A program made the position numbers and the translations under genes. DNA of 64,000 bases, from positions 1 to 64,000 of the IMG/VR virus record IMGVR_UViG_3300021597_000002; one strand, 5' to 3'. Source of the DNA: a virus. Of this stretch, positions 2,349 to 52,204 are shown piece by piece; the first letter of the stretch is position 1; each line of letters begins with the position of its first letter. The notes beneath the pieces were generated by a model. That model had not been told where the DNA came from. It made no database searches and was given only the letters and a program-made list of their open reading frames with translations.

Positions 2349-3019
2349 TACATGTTACGCTGACGACGGGCTTTCATTGATTTGGCACGTTTACGTCGCG
2401 CACCTGAGTTATTTGCCTTGCGGCGAGCCTTCTTCAATGCAGCTTTCTGAGCCGAAGAGAGGCGTTTTTTCTTCAGGGGCTTTTTAATGACTTTCACCTT
2501 GCCATTACGGACCACTCGCTGAGTGGCATCGAGCACAAGCTTGGCTTTTACTGCATACTCGGTGATCAACTCATCGTCTGATTTCTCATTCTCAGATAAC
2601 TTGTCGTTCAGGTAGGTATGTAGCTTCTCACCCGCTTCTTCACTTTCGCTGTCAATAAAGCTTTCAACATTGGCAGCATTCGCGCCTAGTTCCACCAGCG
2701 AGTCCGCTGCCATGGTTAAGATCTCGTTGAAAAGTTCTTCTTCCGGCTCAGTAACTTCGCCGTCTTCATCCAAATCAGCAAGACCGGCAACGATAGCTTC
2801 AAAGTTTGAATAGCTGGCGTCATTGTCTTCCAGCCATGTCAGTGCTGCTGCCATTGCGTTAGCACGAATTTGCTTTTCACCTAGATCGTTACTGGCATCA
2901 TCCAGAATTTGATCAGGGATAGTGTATTCGTTGCTCTGAGGCTTCTTAACAGCTGGCATAACGCCAGCTGAATCAAACACAGGATCAGAACCACCAAATG
3001 GATAACCTGTTCCGTACAT
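2348..3019 (-). CDS. Acidic-then-basic structural protein of unknown function
   Basis: The product is 223 residues with split composition. Residues about 70-160 are strongly acidic (DLDEDGEVTEPEEE). The last 50 or so are very rich in Lys and Arg (KKPLKKKRLSSAQKAALKK, ARRKRAKSMKARRQRN). A basic tail like this could bind DNA or a negatively charged partner in the virion. It lies directly after the sheath gene with a strong site (GGAGTAAAT) before ATG 3019. I do not recognise the family. Confidence 0.65.
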   Translation of the reverse strand: MYGTGYPFGGSDPVFDSAGVMPAVKKPQSNEYTIPDQILDDASNDLGEKQIRANAMAAALTWLEDNDASYSNFEAIVAGLADLDEDGEVTEPEEELFNEILTMAADSLVELGANAANVESFIDSESEEAGEKLHTYLNDKLSENEKSDDELITEYAVKAKLVLDATQRVVRNGKVKVIKKPLKKKRLSSAQKAALKKARRKANNSGARRKRAKSMKARRQRNM

Positions 3020-3029
3020 ATTTACTCCA

Positions 3030-4583
3030 TTACGCCATTAAGCGAGGTTGAATTGCGATACGACGCGCCACACCGGTTTGAGCGTAGGCAACTTCAATGT
3101 GCCAGTAATCAATCTCAACTTGTTTCAGTGTGATACGGTAAGGGTTTTTGCCGTCTTTATTCGGATTGCGAGGCTCAACGAACGCGCCGGCTTCATAGCG
3201 CTTTTTACAGATCTTATCTGCAAGCTCTTGCAAGTTCTCCAACACAAAACCATCAGGCTCGAATTGAACCACGGCAGCGGCTTGCAAAAACTCATGACAA
3301 AGGTCATTGAGAATTGCCGTTGTGTGCTCAAAGCGAAGATAGTTGTTCTTGTGCCAGATATTCAGACAGTCATTAATCACCTTGCCTTTTGCGACAGGGT
3401 TAATGCGAGCTTTGACCAGCTCAGTTGGTTGCAGCTTGCCTGTTAGATGAAGTGGCTCAATACCACGACGATTGATTGTGCCGCGTTTTTCGCCGGCTGC
3501 GGTAAAGTGCGCACCTTTGACTGCAGCGTGACCTGTTGGCGTTGCAAAGCACTTGGCTTTTGCAGCGGTAGCCGCACCTGATAAGCCCCATACACTCTTA
3601 CCGCCGTACCATTCGTCGGTAGCTTTGTATGGATAGTGGAAACAAGACGCTTGATAAGACTCAAGGTTTGCATCTGCCAGCCACTGCTTAGCTGCAACTT
3701 CTGTTAACCATGGCGGCACATCGAAGCGGAATTGCGCCAGACGACCATCAGCAATGGTGATCATGTGAGCAATCGCTGCTGGCTCGTAGTTACCCGCTGC
3801 AAAACACAGATTGAAGTCAATATCATCTGTCTTTAGCAAGTCCCACGCTGCTTTCCAGTTATCCAGTGTTGGATCGCCGCCATTGGTACCACCTTCAAAG
3901 GCTTCTTCGCTGGCTTTAACAACAGAGAAGTCCACGGTAGTAGCGATTTCTGCACGGAAACGAGACGCACGCTCTTCCAATACGTTTGGCAGATAAGCCG
4001 TGAGACCTGAATCGTCCACATCATCCACACTCACGCCTACAACGTAGCTTTCGCCTTGAATGGATTGCCACTCGCCACTGATTTGCTCTTGGAACGAGAG
4101 AGTGAATCGTTCAGTCGCTGAATCGACGTCACTGATCGCCATGCGGCGCTTAGTTGATGGGTCGCCATCTACAGGGTAAACCGCTAACCAATGACCATTG
4201 GCGAGACTTAATGAGGTGCCGTAAGCATGTGATGATTTCACCGCCGCACCTTCTGCCGCTGTTGGTAGCGCAATAGATGGGTATTTCGCATCATCCGCTA
4301 CAACACGGATAACGTGACAGTACTGAAGATCATCAAGTGCATCTTTCAGCTGGCGTAAACCTTCTGCTTTTGTGCCTTGATTCATTGGCAGTGGGCGACC
4401 AAGTAGATCTTCCCAGTCTTCTGCCGTTGCAGTGATGACTTTACCTACTGGTCCTTTTGGTGCAATAACAACACACGCACCTACTGCGACATCGCCGCCA
4501 CCAGTGGTGTAGTTGTTATCAATTGGCGGCAGAACGGCAATACCCGCCGCCTCGGTAATAAATTGGCTGATCATTCCAGACAT
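3030..4583 (-). CDS. Tail sheath protein
   Basis: The product is 517 residues, in the normal range for contractile-tail sheaths and about the size I recall for P1 gp22. The N-terminal pattern (VVIAPKGPVGKVITATAEDWEDLLG, in pieces) is typical of sheath proteins. The C-terminal part (ITLKQVEIDYWHIEVAY and PRLMA) is the conserved sheath core. It would form the contractile outer tube. It is two genes downstream of the capsid gene, as in P1 23-22. Confidence 0.85.
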   Translation of the reverse strand: MSGMISQFITEAAGIAVLPPIDNNYTTGGGDVAVGACVVIAPKGPVGKVITATAEDWEDLLGRPLPMNQGTKAEGLRQLKDALDDLQYCHVIRVVADDAKYPSIALPTAAEGAAVKSSHAYGTSLSLANGHWLAVYPVDGDPSTKRRMAISDVDSATERFTLSFQEQISGEWQSIQGESYVVGVSVDDVDDSGLTAYLPNVLEERASRFRAEIATTVDFSVVKASEEAFEGGTNGGDPTLDNWKAAWDLLKTDDIDFNLCFAAGNYEPAAIAHMITIADGRLAQFRFDVPPWLTEVAAKQWLADANLESYQASCFHYPYKATDEWYGGKSVWGLSGAATAAKAKCFATPTGHAAVKGAHFTAAGEKRGTINRRGIEPLHLTGKLQPTELVKARINPVAKGKVINDCLNIWHKNNYLRFEHTTAILNDLCHEFLQAAAVVQFEPDGFVLENLQELADKICKKRYEAGAFVEPRNPNKDGKNPYRITLKQVEIDYWHIEVAYAQTGVARRIAIQPRLMA

Positions 4584-24090: not shown

Positions 24091-24681
24091 TTACAAACCA
24101 ATTTCAATACTTAGGTAAACATCACGCACACGCTCATCTGTGATACCGATGTATTTAAACGTCTCTGTCACGCTTGAGTGATTAAACAGCTTTTGCAATA
24201 CGTTGATATCGGTACCACGCTTATATGCGTGATAACCAAAGGTCTTGCGCAGTGAGTGGGTATTTAAGCTGTAATCAAGCCCTAGACTATCTTTTACATC
24301 AATCAGCTTGGTAGATATCCATTGACGACTAACGGGCTTAGGATCGCCCTTAACGCGATTCCCTGTAGCTTGGAATAGATAAATAGCTTCTGGATGATTG
24401 GACTTGAGGCGTTCCACGCACTGCATAGCTGTACGATTGAGAGTAAGACGCTTGGGTTTACCAGTCTTTTTCTCTTCCAGCTCTACGTAACCAATGTCTT
24501 CACCTTCAAGCTGCATTGTCTTGATGTCATCAAACCTCAGTTTCAGTAGGTCACTAATACGCAGCGCCACGTTACAGCCAAGCATAACTAACTCAGCTTC
24601 ACGATGGTTTCCCCACTTTTTCAAGCGGTTATAGATGGCTCTCACGTCATCCAGATCTTTAATTGGGTCAACTTGTTTCAT
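24091..24681 (-). CDS. Short tyrosine recombinase (catalytic domain only)
   Basis: The product is 196 residues. All catalytic motifs of the tyrosine recombinase fold are present: R in ALRISDLL, K in EEKKTGKPK, HSLRKTFG, H in LFNHSS, and Y in TFKYIG. The N-terminal arm- and core-binding domain of a typical integrase is missing. This short form recurs in Vibrio and other gamma-proteobacterial phages. No target site is seen nearby. It is the second of three tyrosine recombinases here. Confidence 0.8.
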   Translation of the reverse strand: MKQVDPIKDLDDVRAIYNRLKKWGNHREAELVMLGCNVALRISDLLKLRFDDIKTMQLEGEDIGYVELEEKKTGKPKRLTLNRTAMQCVERLKSNHPEAIYLFQATGNRVKGDPKPVSRQWISTKLIDVKDSLGLDYSLNTHSLRKTFGYHAYKRGTDINVLQKLFNHSSVTETFKYIGITDERVRDVYLSIEIGL

Positions 24682-25931: not shown

Positions 25932-27650
25932 TTATGCTCGCTTATAAAACTTGAAGAACTCATCCAATCGCTCGATTTCCATCAAGCCAACTTGAGCGTA
26001 CTCCTCCAAGCCGTCCTCTATCCAATCACCACATGCTGACTGTATCGCAGCTCTAACCTCGGGGTAATCTTCAGCAAGACACTCAACCACACCACCGCTT
26101 TCAATTGCAGCCACTGCCTGATCTGCTGGGCTTGATTCTTCCTCTCCCAGCAATGCCATTGCGTTAGCCAGTGCACTATCAGATTGACCGTCGCTTTGCT
26201 CGCCGGCAGGAATGTAATCCACCAACCAGAAGAATGCTGTTGCGTCGAAAATATCAGGAGACTTAATGCCCTCACTACGCAGCTGCTTCTTAGAGAACAG
26301 GCGCCAACGTCCCAACTCATCAAACTCATACGGGATCTTGACGAATTGCTTCTGCAGTTTCTTCTCAAACTGTTTCGTCTCACCTTTATGCAGCTTCAAG
26401 CGACCAGTATTCAACGCTTCCTTGACCATGACACACGCATAGTCTTTTTCTTTCGGGAATCGCTGTTTCACTGAGTTAGCATGTGGAGGTCTACCCCAGT
26501 GGATGCGAGTAACATTCACACCAAGCTTTTCACACTCTTGAGCAGTTGTCAGACCGTACCCGTCCGCATCAATACCAACAGTGATATTGGTGTAGCCAGA
26601 TGTTTCTTGATGGATAAAGCGAGCAAATTGAACCCCATCCATATCTGCAGGTGCTTCGATAGCCTTAACGACCTCTACCTGTCGCTCACTACCAAAGCCA
26701 CAAACCTTACCGATCTTGAGCACTGAGCTATCTCGACCTTCACCGCCTGCAACGTCGGCAACAGCCACCCATCCCCACTCATCAACAAACTCAATAACCG
26801 CCTCAAAGCCTTTATCGACCATGCTACGGGAGATCAGGAAGCCACTTGCATCATCAGGACACACACCAAGAACACGAATGCCATACTCAGGGCTACTCAC
26901 ACCCCCGTATTCGATACGTTTTTCTCGGATAAACTTGAGGTTAACAAACGGACTCATTTCACTATTAAGCGTGATAGCCGTGTACAACCCTTGCTCTGCC
27001 AATTCCATTTGTGAATCAGCAAAGTGACCAGTTGGGCGCGTAAACTGGCTAATGAGTAGCATTTTGTTGTTGTCTTCGGTCAATGCACCACGAAGCACTT
27101 CAAACGCTCGATCGGATACACCAGACGCTTCATCGACCACCACCATGTAATCCCTACGGTGCTGACCGGCTAAGCCTTCCTCATTGCCTTTTGAACATGT
27201 TTTCCCGAAAATTTGCCATACGCCCTTGTAGCCTTTCGCATAGAAAGACTTAGCTGTAATGACGAAGTACTGCTCCAACCACGGCTGACGCTGGCAGATC
27301 TTCACCCAAAGGCGCTTAATGTATGAGAAGACAACGTTAGTTACCTGATCTAAGGAGTTTGCCGTCAACATACACAGAGATTCTGGGTGTGTAATGATGA
27401 AATGAAGACACAAAGCTGCGGTTAGGTGAGACTTACCCGTACCGTGACCAGAAGCAACAGACACACGCGCCCCGACCGGAGTCAGGGCGTTAATGACTTC
27501 AATTTGCTGAAACGATGGTTCCATCCCGATAATGTCGTAGATGAAAGCCAACGGTCGACTTCGGTAGCTCGCTGCAAAATCCAGATAACGAGGATCCAGC
27601 GTAATAGCGGCGTGCTTATGCTTTTTGCGGCTTCGGTTTCTAGCTGCCAT
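25932..27650 (-). CDS. pacB: Terminase large subunit (PacB-like)
   Basis: The product is 572 residues. Walker A is SGHGTGKS (residues 67-74), Walker B YMVVVDEA (168-175). The RNase H-type nuclease begins VAVADVAGGEGRDSS with D299, followed by VGIDADGYG near 363. It packs DNA into the procapsid and makes the cuts. The start overlaps the end of the small terminase gene. A PacB identity is favoured because the partner carries a GATC-rich pac-like region, as in P1. Confidence 0.9.
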   Translation of the reverse strand: MAARNRSRKKHKHAAITLDPRYLDFAASYRSRPLAFIYDIIGMEPSFQQIEVINALTPVGARVSVASGHGTGKSHLTAALCLHFIITHPESLCMLTANSLDQVTNVVFSYIKRLWVKICQRQPWLEQYFVITAKSFYAKGYKGVWQIFGKTCSKGNEEGLAGQHRRDYMVVVDEASGVSDRAFEVLRGALTEDNNKMLLISQFTRPTGHFADSQMELAEQGLYTAITLNSEMSPFVNLKFIREKRIEYGGVSSPEYGIRVLGVCPDDASGFLISRSMVDKGFEAVIEFVDEWGWVAVADVAGGEGRDSSVLKIGKVCGFGSERQVEVVKAIEAPADMDGVQFARFIHQETSGYTNITVGIDADGYGLTTAQECEKLGVNVTRIHWGRPPHANSVKQRFPKEKDYACVMVKEALNTGRLKLHKGETKQFEKKLQKQFVKIPYEFDELGRWRLFSKKQLRSEGIKSPDIFDATAFFWLVDYIPAGEQSDGQSDSALANAMALLGEEESSPADQAVAAIESGGVVECLAEDYPEVRAAIQSACGDWIEDGLEEYAQVGLMEIERLDEFFKFYKRA

Positions 27651-28806
27651 GACGGTCCTCAGCGTTTAACGCTTCCAACTCAGCCATACGTGCCGCTAAA
27701 AACTCTTCAGAGCTTTGCTGGTTGCCGAGCTGCAATTGTTTCTCGCGCTCTTCCACCAATTGAGGTGTAACTGCACCCGTTGGCAGTTCTGAATCGTCGT
27801 CATCACCTTCACCAAGCTCAAAGCGGATCTGAGCCAGTAGGTTAGGCGGAATATCTAACCCATTCGCACTGAGCATGTGCCCAGCGGTTAAAGCATCTAT
27901 CTCTTCATTAGCCAACTGATTAAAGACTGTCGACTTGATAGCCAATTGCTCGCTATACGTTAATGTGCTGCCTTGAAGCAGCTTTTGACGCAGTGACTCC
28001 AAGTTGGCAACGCGCCCCATCCAGCGGTCAATGACAGCATCCCAATCCACACGTTTCATTTTTATCGTGGTACCAAGTGGACCTATGTTGTCTTCAAAGA
28101 CTTCTGCACGCATTGCAGCATGGTTGAAGTAATCCGGCTTTTGAAAGTTAGGAAGCCCTTCTTCATCAGGACCAACAACAGGTGGAGGCTCATTCGCTGC
28201 TTCTTCGGCTCTTCTTGCTTGGTCTTCAGCAATTCGCTTCTCAATGTACTCTTGCTCCCCTTTCAATCGGAAAGCTTCTGCCAACTTGGCACGAGCCAAC
28301 GCTAACTCATGATCAATGCCGCCAGCTGCAGAGAATGCCGCCTCATAGGCTTCTGCCATTTCATCGGTTAGGTGTTGAGCGTACAGCCCGTGTTTACGAG
28401 CATTCGAATTACCAGCCTGACCACCTCTATTTCGTTTTGCACCAGCCTGAGAAAACGATCGATCACTATTGCGCGCGCGCTGCCCGTCAGAGTGATCATT
28501 ATTACCATTAACCCTTTGTTTGTTATTGGTTTTACCGCCTTTTTTTGATGTGCTTTTGTTGGTATTACGATCACTTAAACGATCATTATTAAGATCGTTT
28601 TTACGATCACTATCGTGGTCAATCGGCGCATGATCGGATACTTCAATCTTGCCTTTCCGGTATTGGGTAATCGCACGGGTAAGAGATCCGAGCGGAACCC
28701 CTTCATCTTCTGCGAAGTCTTTATTTTTGTACTTAGGGTCATCCTTCTGGCGCTGAAACAACAGCGCCAGTAGACTCGACCAATCGTAGGTGGGCTTTCT
28801 AGCCAT
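27640..28806 (-). CDS. pacA: Terminase small subunit (PacA-like) containing a pac-like site
   Basis: The product is 388 residues, large for a small terminase but close to P1 PacA as I recall it. The N-terminus (WSSLLALLFQRQKDDPKYK, then GVPLGSLTRAITQYRKG) looks like a helix-turn-helix. Residues about 60-115 are an Asn/Asp/Arg-rich low-complexity segment (DRKNDLNNDRLSDRNTN) coded by the 12-base GATC repeats. Then come GNSNARKHGLYAQ, found in many small terminases, and a helical C-terminus. It recognises pac and guides PacB. Confidence 0.8.
   Translation of the reverse strand: MARKPTYDWSSLLALLFQRQKDDPKYKNKDFAEDEGVPLGSLTRAITQYRKGKIEVSDHAPIDHDSDRKNDLNNDRLSDRNTNKSTSKKGGKTNNKQRVNGNNDHSDGQRARNSDRSFSQAGAKRNRGGQAGNSNARKHGLYAQHLTDEMAEAYEAAFSAAGGIDHELALARAKLAEAFRLKGEQEYIEKRIAEDQARRAEEAANEPPPVVGPDEEGLPNFQKPDYFNHAAMRAEVFEDNIGPLGTTIKMKRVDWDAVIDRWMGRVANLESLRQKLLQGSTLTYSEQLAIKSTVFNQLANEEIDALTAGHMLSANGLDIPPNLLAQIRFELGEGDDDDSELPTGAVTPQLVEEREKQLQLGNQQSSEEFLAARMAELEALNAEDRHGS
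28455..28635. other. Pac-like packaging site with eight GATC sequences
   Basis: GATC occurs at 28457, 28461, 28494, 28569, 28581, 28593, 28605 and 28632, eight in 179 bases. The four from 28569 are exactly 12 bases apart, in units such as ACGATCACTTAA and ACGATCATTATT. P1 pac also lies inside pacA, is about 160 bases long and holds seven GATC hexamers whose methylation controls cutting (established for P1). The site lies within the small terminase gene here too. Confidence 0.75.
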
Positions 28807-38065: not shown

Positions 38066-39241
38066 TTAGAACGGGAATCCCTGTTTCTTTAGCCAGTCGT
38101 GGTACTCGCTAAGGGCTTCTTTCATCTTGTGTTCGACGTGAGTATGGATATAAGTCTTATCCAGCTTGCTAAGAGCATGGTTCAACAACATTTCGCCCAC
38201 CATGTAATCCACACCAAGATCAGCCCAGACCGTACGCGCTACTTTTCGTAAGTCGTGCGCTGTCCAATTACTGGCTGAAATGCGCTTAATTTGAGTACTC
38301 GCGGTACTAGCAGGAACACATTGACCACTACGATCATCGTTAGGGAATAGAAATTGCCCTGTGTAACCCTTGGATTTTTGAGCATTCCGGTAAGCATCAA
38401 GCAAAGCTTTAACTGGCTCAGTCAAAGGTAAGCGGTGCGACTGCTTCGTTTTGGTGTGCTCTGCAGGTAGGTACCAATAATCACCGTCTATATGGGACCA
38501 CTTAGCCTGACGTGTTTCGCCTATACGGGTACCAAATAGCAACATCATGAAAATCAGCATTCTGGTGCTGTAGTGACAATCCACCAGCGAAGAAAGTACC
38601 GCTGGAATATCCGACGCTCTGATTTGCGCATCCTTGGGATTGATGCGTTTTTGAATGAAATCAGTGAACTGAAGACCAGCCAAAGGATTGGTACTAATAC
38701 GGTTTTGCTTGGAGGCAAGCTTAAATGCCGCTTTCAGTGCGGAAAATATCAATCTGACGTTAGATAAGGAGTATTTACTTTGAAGGCGCCAGATAAGCGC
38801 ATCGTCTATGCAAGCATGGTTCAACTCATCAATCAGCTTATCACCCAGCATAGGGATCAGGTGCTTATTGATAACGGACTTCACTGTGGCTTTACGCTTT
38901 TTAGATAACTCACGATCTGATTGCGCTCTATCGCAGTACCACTCAAGCAGATCAGAAACGTTCTGGAAGCCGCTGATCTCGATATTCGCTTCAGGGTTCA
39001 GCGTTAACTCCATCACTATGCTAGGCAAACGCTCTTTTACCAGTGATACAGGAACCGCCGGATAACCACCTAGTGGGTGATATTTCTTACCTTTTCTCAG
39101 ATACCAAGTGCCAGTTTCTAACCCTTTATGCGGACGCAACAATACCGTGGGCTTGGACGAAACTTTGATTTCGTAACCCTCGGCGGTTTTTAGCGCTCGC
39201 TTAACGGATGATTCGGAAAAACTGACTGTAAGTGTCTGCAT
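38066..39241 (-). CDS. P4-type tyrosine integrase
   Basis: The product is 391 residues from ATG 39241. The N-terminal arm-binding domain (LRPHKGLETGTWYLRKGKKY, HPLGGYPAVPVSLVKERL) is the DUF4102 type of P4-like integrases. Catalytic motifs are R in LFGTRIGETRQAKW, K in HTKTKQSHRLPL, HDLRKVART, H in LLNHALS, and Y in DKTYIHTH. Such enzymes insert elements into tRNA genes. Here it sits on a replicating element, flanked by the two PadR operators. No att core was recognised. Confidence 0.9.
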   Translation of the reverse strand: MQTLTVSFSESSVKRALKTAEGYEIKVSSKPTVLLRPHKGLETGTWYLRKGKKYHPLGGYPAVPVSLVKERLPSIVMELTLNPEANIEISGFQNVSDLLEWYCDRAQSDRELSKKRKATVKSVINKHLIPMLGDKLIDELNHACIDDALIWRLQSKYSLSNVRLIFSALKAAFKLASKQNRISTNPLAGLQFTDFIQKRINPKDAQIRASDIPAVLSSLVDCHYSTRMLIFMMLLFGTRIGETRQAKWSHIDGDYWYLPAEHTKTKQSHRLPLTEPVKALLDAYRNAQKSKGYTGQFLFPNDDRSGQCVPASTASTQIKRISASNWTAHDLRKVARTVWADLGVDYMVGEMLLNHALSKLDKTYIHTHVEHKMKEALSEYHDWLKKQGFPF

Positions 39242-39296
39242 TAAGAGTCCCAACGGCTGAGTGACTTTTTACCTCTGGCTCAACCTTTTTAAAAAA

Positions 39297-45218: not shown

Positions 45219-45346
45219 GGTATCTCGACTTATGCTTTGCTAGTATCTCGATTTATGCAAAACGGCATCTCAACTTATGCGTTTGGGTATCTCGATTTAT
45301 GCAAAGTGGTATCTCAACTTATGCGTTTGGGTATCTCGATTTATGC
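45219..45346 (+). repeat. Origin 1: six iterons of 22 bases
   Basis: Six copies of GGTATCTCGAYTTATGC or close variants start at 45219, 45242, 45264, 45286, 45308 and 45330, that is, 22 or 23 bases apart. Two forms alternate: CGATTTATGCAAA and CAACTTATGCGTT. Iterons of this size bind replication initiators. The TrfA-like gene 570 bases away is the likely binder. This is not CRISPR, as there are no unique spacers. Confidence 0.87.
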
Positions 45347-45363
45347 ATTTTTTCACTTCAATT

Positions 45364-45915: not shown

Positions 45916-46704
45916 TTACTTACGCAGAATCCGATCTGACTCTTTATCTATGTAGGCATCAACAATACCAGCTGCTTTGAGCAATTTAAGTGCTGTCTTC
46001 AACTTTTGACGAAACGTTTTCAAATCGCTCGCCTTAGAACCACAGCTATGCATCACTTTTTCTACTGACACAGCGTACTTGTTGTTCGCTTTATGGCTGG
46101 CAAAATAAAACTGCAACCATTTTGCTATGTTGTTGTTCTTTAGTACCTGACGACGTTTTAGATCGATTCTAGCAAAACCAGAAGAAGTGAAAAATTTCAC
46201 CAACTCTACGGGTAAACGATAATGCCAAAAGCGTGCCATTGCACCATTTACGTCTTTATATTCGAACGAGTCTACCAAATTAAAGTTAAATCGGTGTTGA
46301 ATTAGATCGCCTTCTTCTCTTCGAGTGATAAGACCTTCAATATTTGACTGGCTTAATCGACGCATACATTGCAGTAGTCTTTCATAGTAAAAAGGCGTTC
46401 TAGCCCAGCCTAAAGACTTCATTAACTCTGCTCGTTTGAATTTCAACTTACCTGATAGGTCTGCATTGCGTGCATAGTGAAGAAGTTCCAGATACACATC
46501 TAGATCATCTTGCCTTAGCTCTGGTCCTACGAACTGCAGTTCCATCGGCGTATGACTACCATCAAGCAATCCCAGTAAAATTGGCTTTGTGTAGTATCGA
46601 CGCTCTTGTGAAGTGCCAACGGTGAATAGCGCATATCGCGCTAATTCATTAGGTAGGCAGCGAACGGCTTTCGCCCATGGTTTTTCAATTAGCTTTACTG
46701 ACAT
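45916..46704 (-). CDS. TrfA-like replication initiator
   Basis: The product is 262 residues. [55 protein letters not shown] and [20 protein letters not shown] (each part of the same order) match the TrfA family of RK2-type plasmids, including the final winged-helix region. It would bind the iterons at 45219-45346. Its start overlaps the rdgC stop by 10 bases. Confidence 0.82.
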
Positions 46705-49460: not shown

Positions 49461-49721
49461 ATGTCAAACCACCAGCAACGATATACACGATGGCAGCGTA
49501 TTAAAACACTAGGCTTCCATGATTTGCTAATTCGCTTTTCCTCTCCATACAAACTCCATTTCTTGGCTGGATTGCACGCCATATCTATCAACCATGGTGC
49601 CAACATCACTAAGGAAGTGACCTCCCTTAAAAGCGCATTCTCTGATTTAGATACGGAAAAGGCAGCAACCGCCATCATATTTCACCCGCAATTTGGGAAA
49701 ACCAGCAACAAAAAGGGATAG
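49461..49721 (+). CDS. Hypothetical small protein
   Basis: The product is 86 residues from ATG 49461, after TGGAGGCGGA. It has HFLAGLHAISINHGANITKE and a helical end. The stop is 1 base before the Dam start. The family is unknown. Confidence 0.55.
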   Translation: MSNHQQRYTRWQRIKTLGFHDLLIRFSSPYKLHFLAGLHAISINHGANITKEVTSLKSAFSDLDTEKAATAIIFHPQFGKTSNKKG

Positions 49722-49722
49722 C

Positions 49723-50562
49723 ATGAAACCACTAATCAAATGGGCAGGCGGCAAAACGTGGCTTGCCAAACGTGCAGAGCGCATTGTTAATGACATTGCA
49801 CCAGAACGAGTCGTAGAGCCTTTCGCCGGCTCTGCAGCATTTTCTTTGTTTTATGAATTTAACAACGTCACCCTCAATGATGCTAACCCCGCCCTTATCA
49901 ATTTGTATAAGCAACTCTCCAACGGGTATGAAATAGATCCAAACGATTTCTTGCTAGAAGAGGAGTTCTTCTATTCTGCCAGAGAGGAACTGAATAACTC
50001 TTTACTGCCTGGTCAGGAGCTAGGCGAAAGGGAAGCTGCCCTTTTTTGGTATCTATGCAAACACTCTTTCAATGGGCTTGTTCGCCAAAGCAAACGAGAA
50101 GGCAAATTTAACATGCCGTTTGGTGACTATAAGGGCATCGCCACTCCACCGGACACAAAAGAGTTTATGCGAGTCGCTAAAAACTGGACCTTTAATTGCG
50201 GTTGCTTCTCAGCGGTAGATATATCCGATGCTCAGATGGTCCTAATGGATCCTCCTTATGAGAAAACATTTAACGGCTACACCAAAGATAAAAATGAAAA
50301 CTTACAAGATCGCATTGTTAGTATGCTTAGTGGCTACGATGGTGCTGTAATCGCCACTAACACGCTTTTGCCTGAACTTACCCATATCTACCGAGAGGAG
50401 GGCTTTACCGTCTATAAAACGCCTGTGAGGCGCTCTATCAGCTGTAAAGGGAGCGGGAGAGGTAAAACATTTGAAATGATCGCACTTAGAGGGTTTTCTA
50501 AGAAGCAATTTAGGCGCTACATGGATGGGTTACAACCTTACTACCCTAAACCAGTGAACGTT
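49723..50562 (+). CDS. dam: Dam-type adenine DNA methyltransferase (GATC)
   Basis: The product is about 280 residues from ATG 49723, after AAAAGGG; the frame ends with a TGA at 50563-50565. KPLIKWAGGKTWL and EPFAGSAA (32-39) form the AdoMet site. DPPY (176-179) is the catalytic motif. FNMPFGDYKG and the NLQD part match the D12-class Dam family. It should methylate GATC. The pac-like site and half the iterons of origin 2 carry GATC. Confidence 0.9.
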
Positions 50563-50714
50563 TGAGGATAAAAACGTGAGGATTTGAGGTGAATCGTGAA
50601 GTGATGACTCCGTAGAACACCCCCATCAACACCACGCCAATACTAATTAAAGTCTTGAATAATATGGCTTTTGTAAAAACTCAAAAGCTCATTGTTATCA
50701 TTAGTTACCCCATA

Positions 50715-50760: not shown

Positions 50761-51807
50761 TCACGCTTTTTCTTCAATCTCTTGAGCAGCTTCTTCAGAT
50801 TCTCTCAGTTTTGAAAAGAACCCACTGCCAAAATCGTGCCCTTCAGTACCAATCCTCACCAAATGTTCTTTTAGATTATTAATTTCCTCAATGGACGGAA
50901 TGCATCGCTTATCAACAACGTCGGCAAATGTCTTTAATGCATCCTCGTAGGTCAGATTTTTCTCAACCTTAACGCCGACCTCTTTTTCCGGCAATTGCCA
51001 CTTAAAAAGAAACTTAATCCCGACTACTTTTCTACCTTCTTTGATGTAAGAGAATCCGTAGTTCCCTGTTTTGTCATCGATCAGGAATCTAATATGGGAC
51101 TCTTTCTCATCAATTTCTTGAATCGCTGGTTTAATGATCCGCTTGATAAAGTTAGCGTTTACAGCATAAGTCTTTTTCAATAGCGTCCCTTGCCTATCTA
51201 ACAAACCAAAGAAACCATGGAGGTCTTCAATCGTTTGTGGGTGCAGCTCAGTGTTAGGGGATTTGAACCGGCAAAGCATGGTATACAATCTTTTGCCATG
51301 CTCCGTTTTTATTTGTCGGAATGATTTATGTGGAATTTGAGCGTGACCTTGGGATATCCCTAAATACTCTGTGATCAGCTCATCATTAGGTTTGATGGTT
51401 AGCGTGCCATGTTTGTACTTAACTCGCTTAAACAAAGGGATAAAGTCGAAAGAATCACCTTCCTGTATCACACCTATTTTCTTACCTGCCAATCGTTCTG
51501 ACGGCTTATAGAGGATGTTATAAAGGTCTTCCTTTTCCACGCAAAACCAGTCGCAAAGCACTTTGCTTTTAAACTCATAGCTAGGTGATATCGGTGTTTT
51601 CCCTGCCATAAAGTCTTCCCACTGGTCTTTATGCAACCGTGACAGTAATAGAGCAAAAATATCGTGCTCCACTGGTGATAACGACAGTCGGGAAAAGACA
51701 AGCGCATGAGATTTTTTGAAAAAGTCGCTATGGATATCGGCAGACACTGCACTTGTGATTGTTCGTTCTTTTGGCAACTTTTGCTCAGGGGCGTCATTGT
51801 CATTCAT
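50761..51807 (-). CDS. Rep_3-type replication initiator
   Basis: The product is 348 residues. FSRLSLSPVEHDIFALLLSR, RLAGKKIGVIQEGDSFDFIP, SFRQIKTEHGKRLYTMLCRF, and YAVNANFIKRIIKPAIQEID are the two winged-helix repeats of the Rep_3 superfamily. Iterons lie upstream. One of them overlaps the ribosome site directly before ATG 51807, so Rep binding may block its own gene. This is the second initiator in the window. Confidence 0.83.
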   Translation of the reverse strand: MNDNDAPEQKLPKERTITSAVSADIHSDFFKKSHALVFSRLSLSPVEHDIFALLLSRLHKDQWEDFMAGKTPISPSYEFKSKVLCDWFCVEKEDLYNILYKPSERLAGKKIGVIQEGDSFDFIPLFKRVKYKHGTLTIKPNDELITEYLGISQGHAQIPHKSFRQIKTEHGKRLYTMLCRFKSPNTELHPQTIEDLHGFFGLLDRQGTLLKKTYAVNANFIKRIIKPAIQEIDEKESHIRFLIDDKTGNYGFSYIKEGRKVVGIKFLFKWQLPEKEVGVKVEKNLTYEDALKTFADVVDKRCIPSIEEINNLKEHLVRIGTEGHDFGSGFFSKLRESEEAAQEIEEKA

Positions 51808-52072: not shown

Positions 52073-52204
52073 CCGGAGTAAAAGGTAATAGTTACCGGAG
52101 TAAAACGATCTATCTAGCGGAGTAAAAGGTAATAGTTACCGGAGTAAAGTGATCTAGTTACCGGAGTAGAACGATCTAGTTACCGGAGTAAAAGGTAATA
52201 GTTT
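52073..52204 (+). repeat. Origin 2: six tandem 22-base iterons of two types
   Basis: Units start at 52073, 52095, 52117, 52139, 52161 and 52183, exactly 22 apart. Type 1 (52073, 52117, 52183) reads CGGAGTAAAAGGTAATAGTT. Type 2 (52095, 52139, 52161) replaces the middle with CGATCTA or TGATCTA, so it carries GATC. The Rep_3 protein should bind them. The GATC units would be open to Dam methylation. Confidence 0.88.

Follow-up and report, generated by a model that had tools for sequence, protein, structure and literature searches.

A GATC repeat array inside a pacA-like gene is probably the pac site in a P1-like Vibrio phage-plasmid

The pac site of phage P1 is 161 bp long and contains seven TGATC(A/G) hexamers, four in one group and three in another. 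It is sensitive to hemimethylation, and silent changes to the hexamers lower the phage titre about ninefold (PMC10028697). In the P1 record, GATC occurs at positions 195, 202, 214, 229, 325, 337, 348 and 376 of the pacA gene, with an IHF site (AAACAAAGAGTTA) at positions 256-268 and the cleavage sites at positions 276-285. In Vibrio, the related prophage pVv01 is an inducible phage, and its virion DNA is circularly permuted by Bal31 analysis, which is what headful packaging predicts (PMC4132613). PacA has been reported as not identified in pVv01 and its group (PMC4132613), and our literature search found no description of a pac site in p0908 or pVv01.

We analyzed a stretch of 64,000 nucleotides (the window) from a virus record of 78,302 bases. 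The element belongs to the p0908/pVv01 group of P1-like Vibrio plasmid prophages. A 74-kb plasmid of Vibrio campbellii BoB-90 shares 99.1% identity with the region, and DNA identity over the region is 87% for p0908 and 79% for both V. vulnificus p48/10 and V. cholerae pSA7G2. The last three plasmids each carry a pacA with the same array as that described below. The window also contains two sets of iteron-like 22/44-bp repeats (45222-45347 and 52073-52203). Each set is near a replication-initiator-like gene, one TrfA-like (45916-46704) and the other rep-like (50761-51807), which suggests that the element has two replication systems.

As in P1, the array is inside a small terminase gene beside pacB. 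The large terminase is of the pacB type (572 amino acids; 25932-27650, minus strand) and is 40-41% identical to the PacB proteins of D6 and P1 over 85-89% of its length. Directly upstream, and overlapping the start of pacB by 11 bp, is the pacA-like small terminase gene (388 amino acids; 27640-28806, minus strand). This gene belongs to PHROG 19659, for which no function is given, and has weak matches to two small-terminase families. A direct protein search with the small terminase in a phage collection gave no match, and the similarity to P1 PacA in pairwise BLAST is weak, does not extend over the full length and is insufficient alone. Because the direct search was empty and pairwise BLAST too weak, profile comparison and an intermediate protein were needed. 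In hhalign, a Vibrio/Photobacterium profile matched P1, D6 and other PacA proteins with 93.4% probability (E 2.5e-7) over residues 277-380 (27667-27978, minus strand), a C-terminal stretch common to PacA proteins. The score there was 47.1, compared to at most 29.9 in 60 column-shuffled controls, and the N-terminal comparison scored 16.5, compared to at most 12.3 in 60 such controls. Furthermore, the second helix-turn-helix of a V. alginolyticus PacA that has two links the N-termini of the window protein and P1 PacA. Based on these sequence comparisons, we conclude that the gene is remotely homologous to PacA and that the pair is homologous to pacA-pacB of P1.

The N-terminal helix-turn-helix of the protein (residues 9-50; 28657-28782, minus strand) is predicted by AlphaFold as three helices with a pLDDT of 87-89. 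The rest of the model is poor (mean pLDDT of 51.6 for the whole protein). Structure matches to the helix-turn-helix are generic DNA-binding domains with low Z scores, up to 5.6, and the failure to recognize a small-terminase fold among them proves nothing. Just after this domain is a linker that is predicted to be disordered (residues 59-151; 28354-28632, minus strand; pLDDT mostly 29-49). The array codes for residues 58-117, which is the start of this predicted linker.

Two tyrosine recombinase genes flank the terminase pair. A short one (196 amino acids; 24091-24681) is downstream of pacB, in approximately the place that cre occupies relative to pac in P1, and a longer one (395 amino acids; 38066-39253) is about 10 kb away on the other side. 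We looked for a lox-like site near pacB and none was established.

An earlier note on this DNA had described eight GATC sites, four of them at exact 12-base spacing, inside a small terminase gene. Our recount of the positions bears this out: the sites start at 28457, 28461, 28494, 28569, 28581, 28593, 28605 and 28632, all within 179 bases (28457-28635), and the 388-codon pacA-like gene encloses all eight. Other 180-bp stretches of the window that do not overlap the cluster have at most five GATC. Simulated Markov copies of the window (orders 1-3; 900 in total) never had eight GATC in the same span, nor four at 12-base spacing. Over all 78,302 bases of the record, a pattern search found a run of three GATC at 12-base spacing nowhere but at the cluster. 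An Rfam search of the cluster region gave no match. In a Poisson scan of the window, GATC ranks only about 11th of the 256 tetramers by clustering. Clustering alone is thus weak evidence and not extraordinary; the 12-base spacing and the conservation across relatives are stronger evidence.

The layout of the cluster resembles that of P1 pac. On the coding strand, the eight sites are at gene positions 172, 199, 211, 223, 235, 310, 343 and 347. Four of them form a left arm at 12-bp spacing (199, 211, 223 and 235; 28569-28608, minus strand) and three a right arm (310, 343 and 347; 28457-28497, minus strand). The remaining outer site (172; 28632-28635, minus strand) is not conserved in relatives. 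The arms of the window gene (199-235 and 310-347) are similarly placed to those of P1 (195-229 and 325-348), and both have a four-plus-three arrangement. Six of the eight sites fit TGATC(A/G) in either orientation, compared to 24% of sites window-wide (P = 0.003). An IHF-like sequence, AAACAAAGGGTTA, lies between the arms (gene position 286; 28509-28521, minus strand). It has one mismatch and is the only IHF-like match with no more than one mismatch in the gene. The corresponding sequence has two mismatches in p0908, and Photobacterium has no match within one mismatch.

There are also differences from P1. The left arm of the window is regular, with 12-bp steps, whereas the steps in P1 are 7, 12 and 15 bp, and two of the eight hexamers in the window depart from TGATC(A/G) whichever way they are read. 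The window PacA is only remotely similar to that of P1, whose pac cleavage is mapped. Lastly, the IHF-like sequence in the window is closer to the right arm. Because its spacing to the arms differs from that in P1, we do not predict a cut position.

Comparison among relatives indicates that the DNA of the array is maintained while the protein it encodes changes quickly. Absence of the repeats from close relatives, which the earlier note considered to be evidence against a pac site, was looked for, and instead six of the seven core sites were found in every full-length homologue. Sites 199, 211, 223, 235, 343 and 347 are retained in all homologues examined. Site 310 (28494) is absent only from Photobacterium, in which the left arm is kept with one 9-bp step. 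Between Photobacterium and the window, all six array GATC are retained, compared to 8 of 51 other in-phase tetramers (P = 8e-5). Relative to p0908, codon differences in residues 57-125 are amino-acid-changing in 18 cases and silent in 8; in the gene after residue 125, 14 change the amino acid and 95 are silent. The residue after Asp varies among homologues (Arg, Leu or His), yet its codon begins with C every time. The linker protein changes rapidly while GATC persists, and therefore the DNA motif is under more constraint than the protein. These alignments agree with the suggestion in the earlier note that a DNA signal constrains the protein, in that the DNA of the repeat block is the better conserved of the two.

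It is conceivable that the repeats are a by-product of the protein. A disordered linker rich in Asn, Asp and Arg, in which GAT is followed by CGN, could contain many GATC that have no role as DNA. The linker is indeed of low complexity and predicted to be disordered, and amino-acid composition explains some of the GATC: with the protein held fixed, synonymous codon shuffling still gives about 4.9 of the 8 GATC seen in the region. However, the counts exceed those in synonymous shuffles for the window (P = 0.016), p0908 (P = 0.0006) and p48/10 (P = 0.0016). In-frame Asp codons that precede a C are GAT in six of six cases in the array, whereas elsewhere in the gene GAC is used five times and GAT twice. 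The freedom with which the linker amino acids vary while GATC stays, and the recurrence of 12-bp-spaced arrays in unrelated linkers (see below), also argue against this explanation, and we consider it improbable.

We surveyed relatives to determine how widespread such arrays are. Viral contigs, plasmids, phages and Vibrionaceae genomes were collected via PacB protein alignment, the pacA-like gene upstream was taken from each relative, and the set was reduced to 40 lineages. Gammaproteobacteria genomes contributed only one further match, a distant one. With a GATC array defined as at least six GATC in 200 bp with P <= 0.02, thresholds that were set after seeing the data, 15 of the 40 PacB-family lineages have a GATC array in pacA. 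Four of the 40 have a TGCGCA array, and one lineage has both. No core recurs more often than GATC among these lineages. GATC arrays are commonly divided by their largest gap into two arms, e.g., four plus three in lineages L060 and L070 and five plus three in Aeromonas. Exactly 12 bp separates 25 of 67 adjacent GATC pairs, in 10 of 11 sampled lineages, compared to 1 of 32 pairs in flanking DNA. Coding constraint favors multiples of three, yet 12 exceeds 9, 15 and 18. In the pacA genes of three other P1-like elements (L047, L048 and L053), five or six consecutive GATC are at exact 12-bp spacing, which is more regular than in the window.

Two plasmids illustrate the range of these arrays. The Aeromonas salmonicida AS3 plasmid (L024) resembles the window in having five TGATCA repeats, an 85-bp gap and then three GATC inside pacA. 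It differs in that the repeat spacing is 15-18 bp rather than 12 bp, and a D12-class methyltransferase was not found on the plasmid. Spartinivicinus ruber plasmid pA (L037) has the same order of lysis genes, pacA and pacB as the window, and its pacA has an array in the matching position. In contrast to the window, its repeats are of the TGCGCA type, and Dam would therefore be unable to act on them. Seven to nine TGCGCAA-type copies (2101-2247 of L037) occupy the position of the GATC array there.

We had expected a GATC array to be universal among PacB relatives, and the survey rejected this. The closest outgroups by PacB (L045, L046 and the Spartinivicinus lineage L037) have no GATC array, and such an array is thus not a strict property of the PacB family. 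In the D6 and Citrobacter groups, arrays are weak or absent. Five PacB relatives in Vibrionaceae genomes (L127-L131) have short upstream genes (230-250 amino acids) without any repeat array, and these genes are possibly a different type of small terminase. Xanthomonas phage Rb1 and Ideonella have GAAACC repeats in their small-terminase genes; these did not consistently exceed the null and were set aside. In Alteromonas pAMBAS45 (L018), a Tn3-family transposon is just upstream of the array (about 2979-3080); the first ~55 codons of pacA have been lost, and the array, the remainder of pacA and pacB are retained.

GATC clusters also mark Dam-controlled origins of replication. The array might then be an origin, or a switch controlled by SeqA and Dam, inside the gene and comparable to oriR or oriL of P1. 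A precedent for an origin within a coding sequence is the lytic origin of P1, which has been postulated inside repL (PMC9948254). However, the rep-like gene (50761-51807) with 22-bp repeats at 52073-52203 lies elsewhere in the window, as does the TrfA-like gene near the repeats at 45222-45347. Moreover, the array tracks pacA across the PacB family and matches the mapped pac of P1. We regard an origin or switch here as very improbable.

Based on the homology of the gene pair to pacA-pacB, the position of the array relative to that of P1 pac, and the better conservation of DNA than protein, all of which favor the pac-like reading in the earlier note, we conclude that the GATC cluster very probably serves this P1-like Vibrio phage-plasmid as its pac site, located inside its own PacA gene. 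We postulate that the N-terminal helix-turn-helix of PacA probably binds the two arms of GATC-centered repeats and that the intervening DNA may be bent by IHF. The terminase formed by PacA and PacB would then cut between or beside the arms, and headfuls would be packed from the cut. Adenine methylation of the GATCs by the Dam of the host or of the element probably decides which copies are cut, as in P1. Taken as a whole, this explanation, with its PacA-PacB, IHF and Dam steps, is in our judgment highly probable.

The contribution of Dam deserves separate consideration. The earlier note had pointed to a Dam gene in the window, and there is indeed a gene for a Dam-family N6-adenine methyltransferase at 49693-50565 on the plus strand (MethyltransfD12, E 2e-29), so that the element resembles P1 in this respect as well. 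The protein matches E. coli Dam (E 3e-20), and a Dam-family gene is present on each of the seven related Vibrio plasmids that carry this pacA. The search for a D12-class gene on the Photobacterium plasmid was negative, and several elements with GATC arrays have no D12-class enzyme. Vibrio hosts have Dam, and host Dam could be the source of methylation for such elements. We doubt that host Dam is a sufficient explanation: in Vibrionaceae, at least one genome (L124) has a TGCGCA array and no significant GATC array, and L127-L131 have neither. Dam control is therefore plausible. If the array is a pac site, we think it likely that cutting is under Dam control.

Alternatively, the array could be a pac site at which cutting is independent of Dam and the GATC core is simply the sequence read by PacA. 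Relatives that use TGCGCA-type arrays without GATC in the same linker fit this alternative, since they indicate that methylation is unnecessary for a pac array as such, and so do the elements with a GATC array and no D12-class methyltransferase. On the other hand, the element has its own Dam-family gene in addition to the Dam of its Vibrio host, and no other core recurs as often as GATC in the survey. Hemimethylation control has also been reported for P1 pac (PMC10028697). We therefore consider Dam-independent cutting unlikely, although it is the most serious of the alternatives.

The P1 type of pac is known already, and what is newer here is the apparent lineage-specific swap of the repeat core. 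On a PacB tree, branches without GATC arrays separate the clade of the window from the GATC lineages of P1 and Aeromonas. A GATC-only label requires at least four changes on this tree, or five when the lineage that has both arrays is included; the tree is a quick one, and the placement of two long end branches (L037 and L046) is unsure. We speculate that throughout the PacB family pac is a repeat array in the disordered linker of PacA, and that the core has been exchanged between lineages (GATC, TGCGCA-type and possibly others). Dam-sensitive packaging would then have been gained or lost several times and not passed down unbroken from an ancestor of P1. Because the nearest outgroups have no GATC arrays, the clade of the window would be a separate case from that of P1. 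We offer this scenario tentatively, as one with slightly less than an even chance of being correct.

Our findings provide marine P1-like phage-plasmids with the PacA that was missing and with a predicted pac site. They also indicate that the design of P1 pac, a DNA signal centered on Dam sites within a protein-coding linker, is recurrent, with a 12-bp periodicity, and is not an oddity of P1. Relatives with arrays of another core at this position offer natural controls for studying what purpose Dam control serves in packaging.
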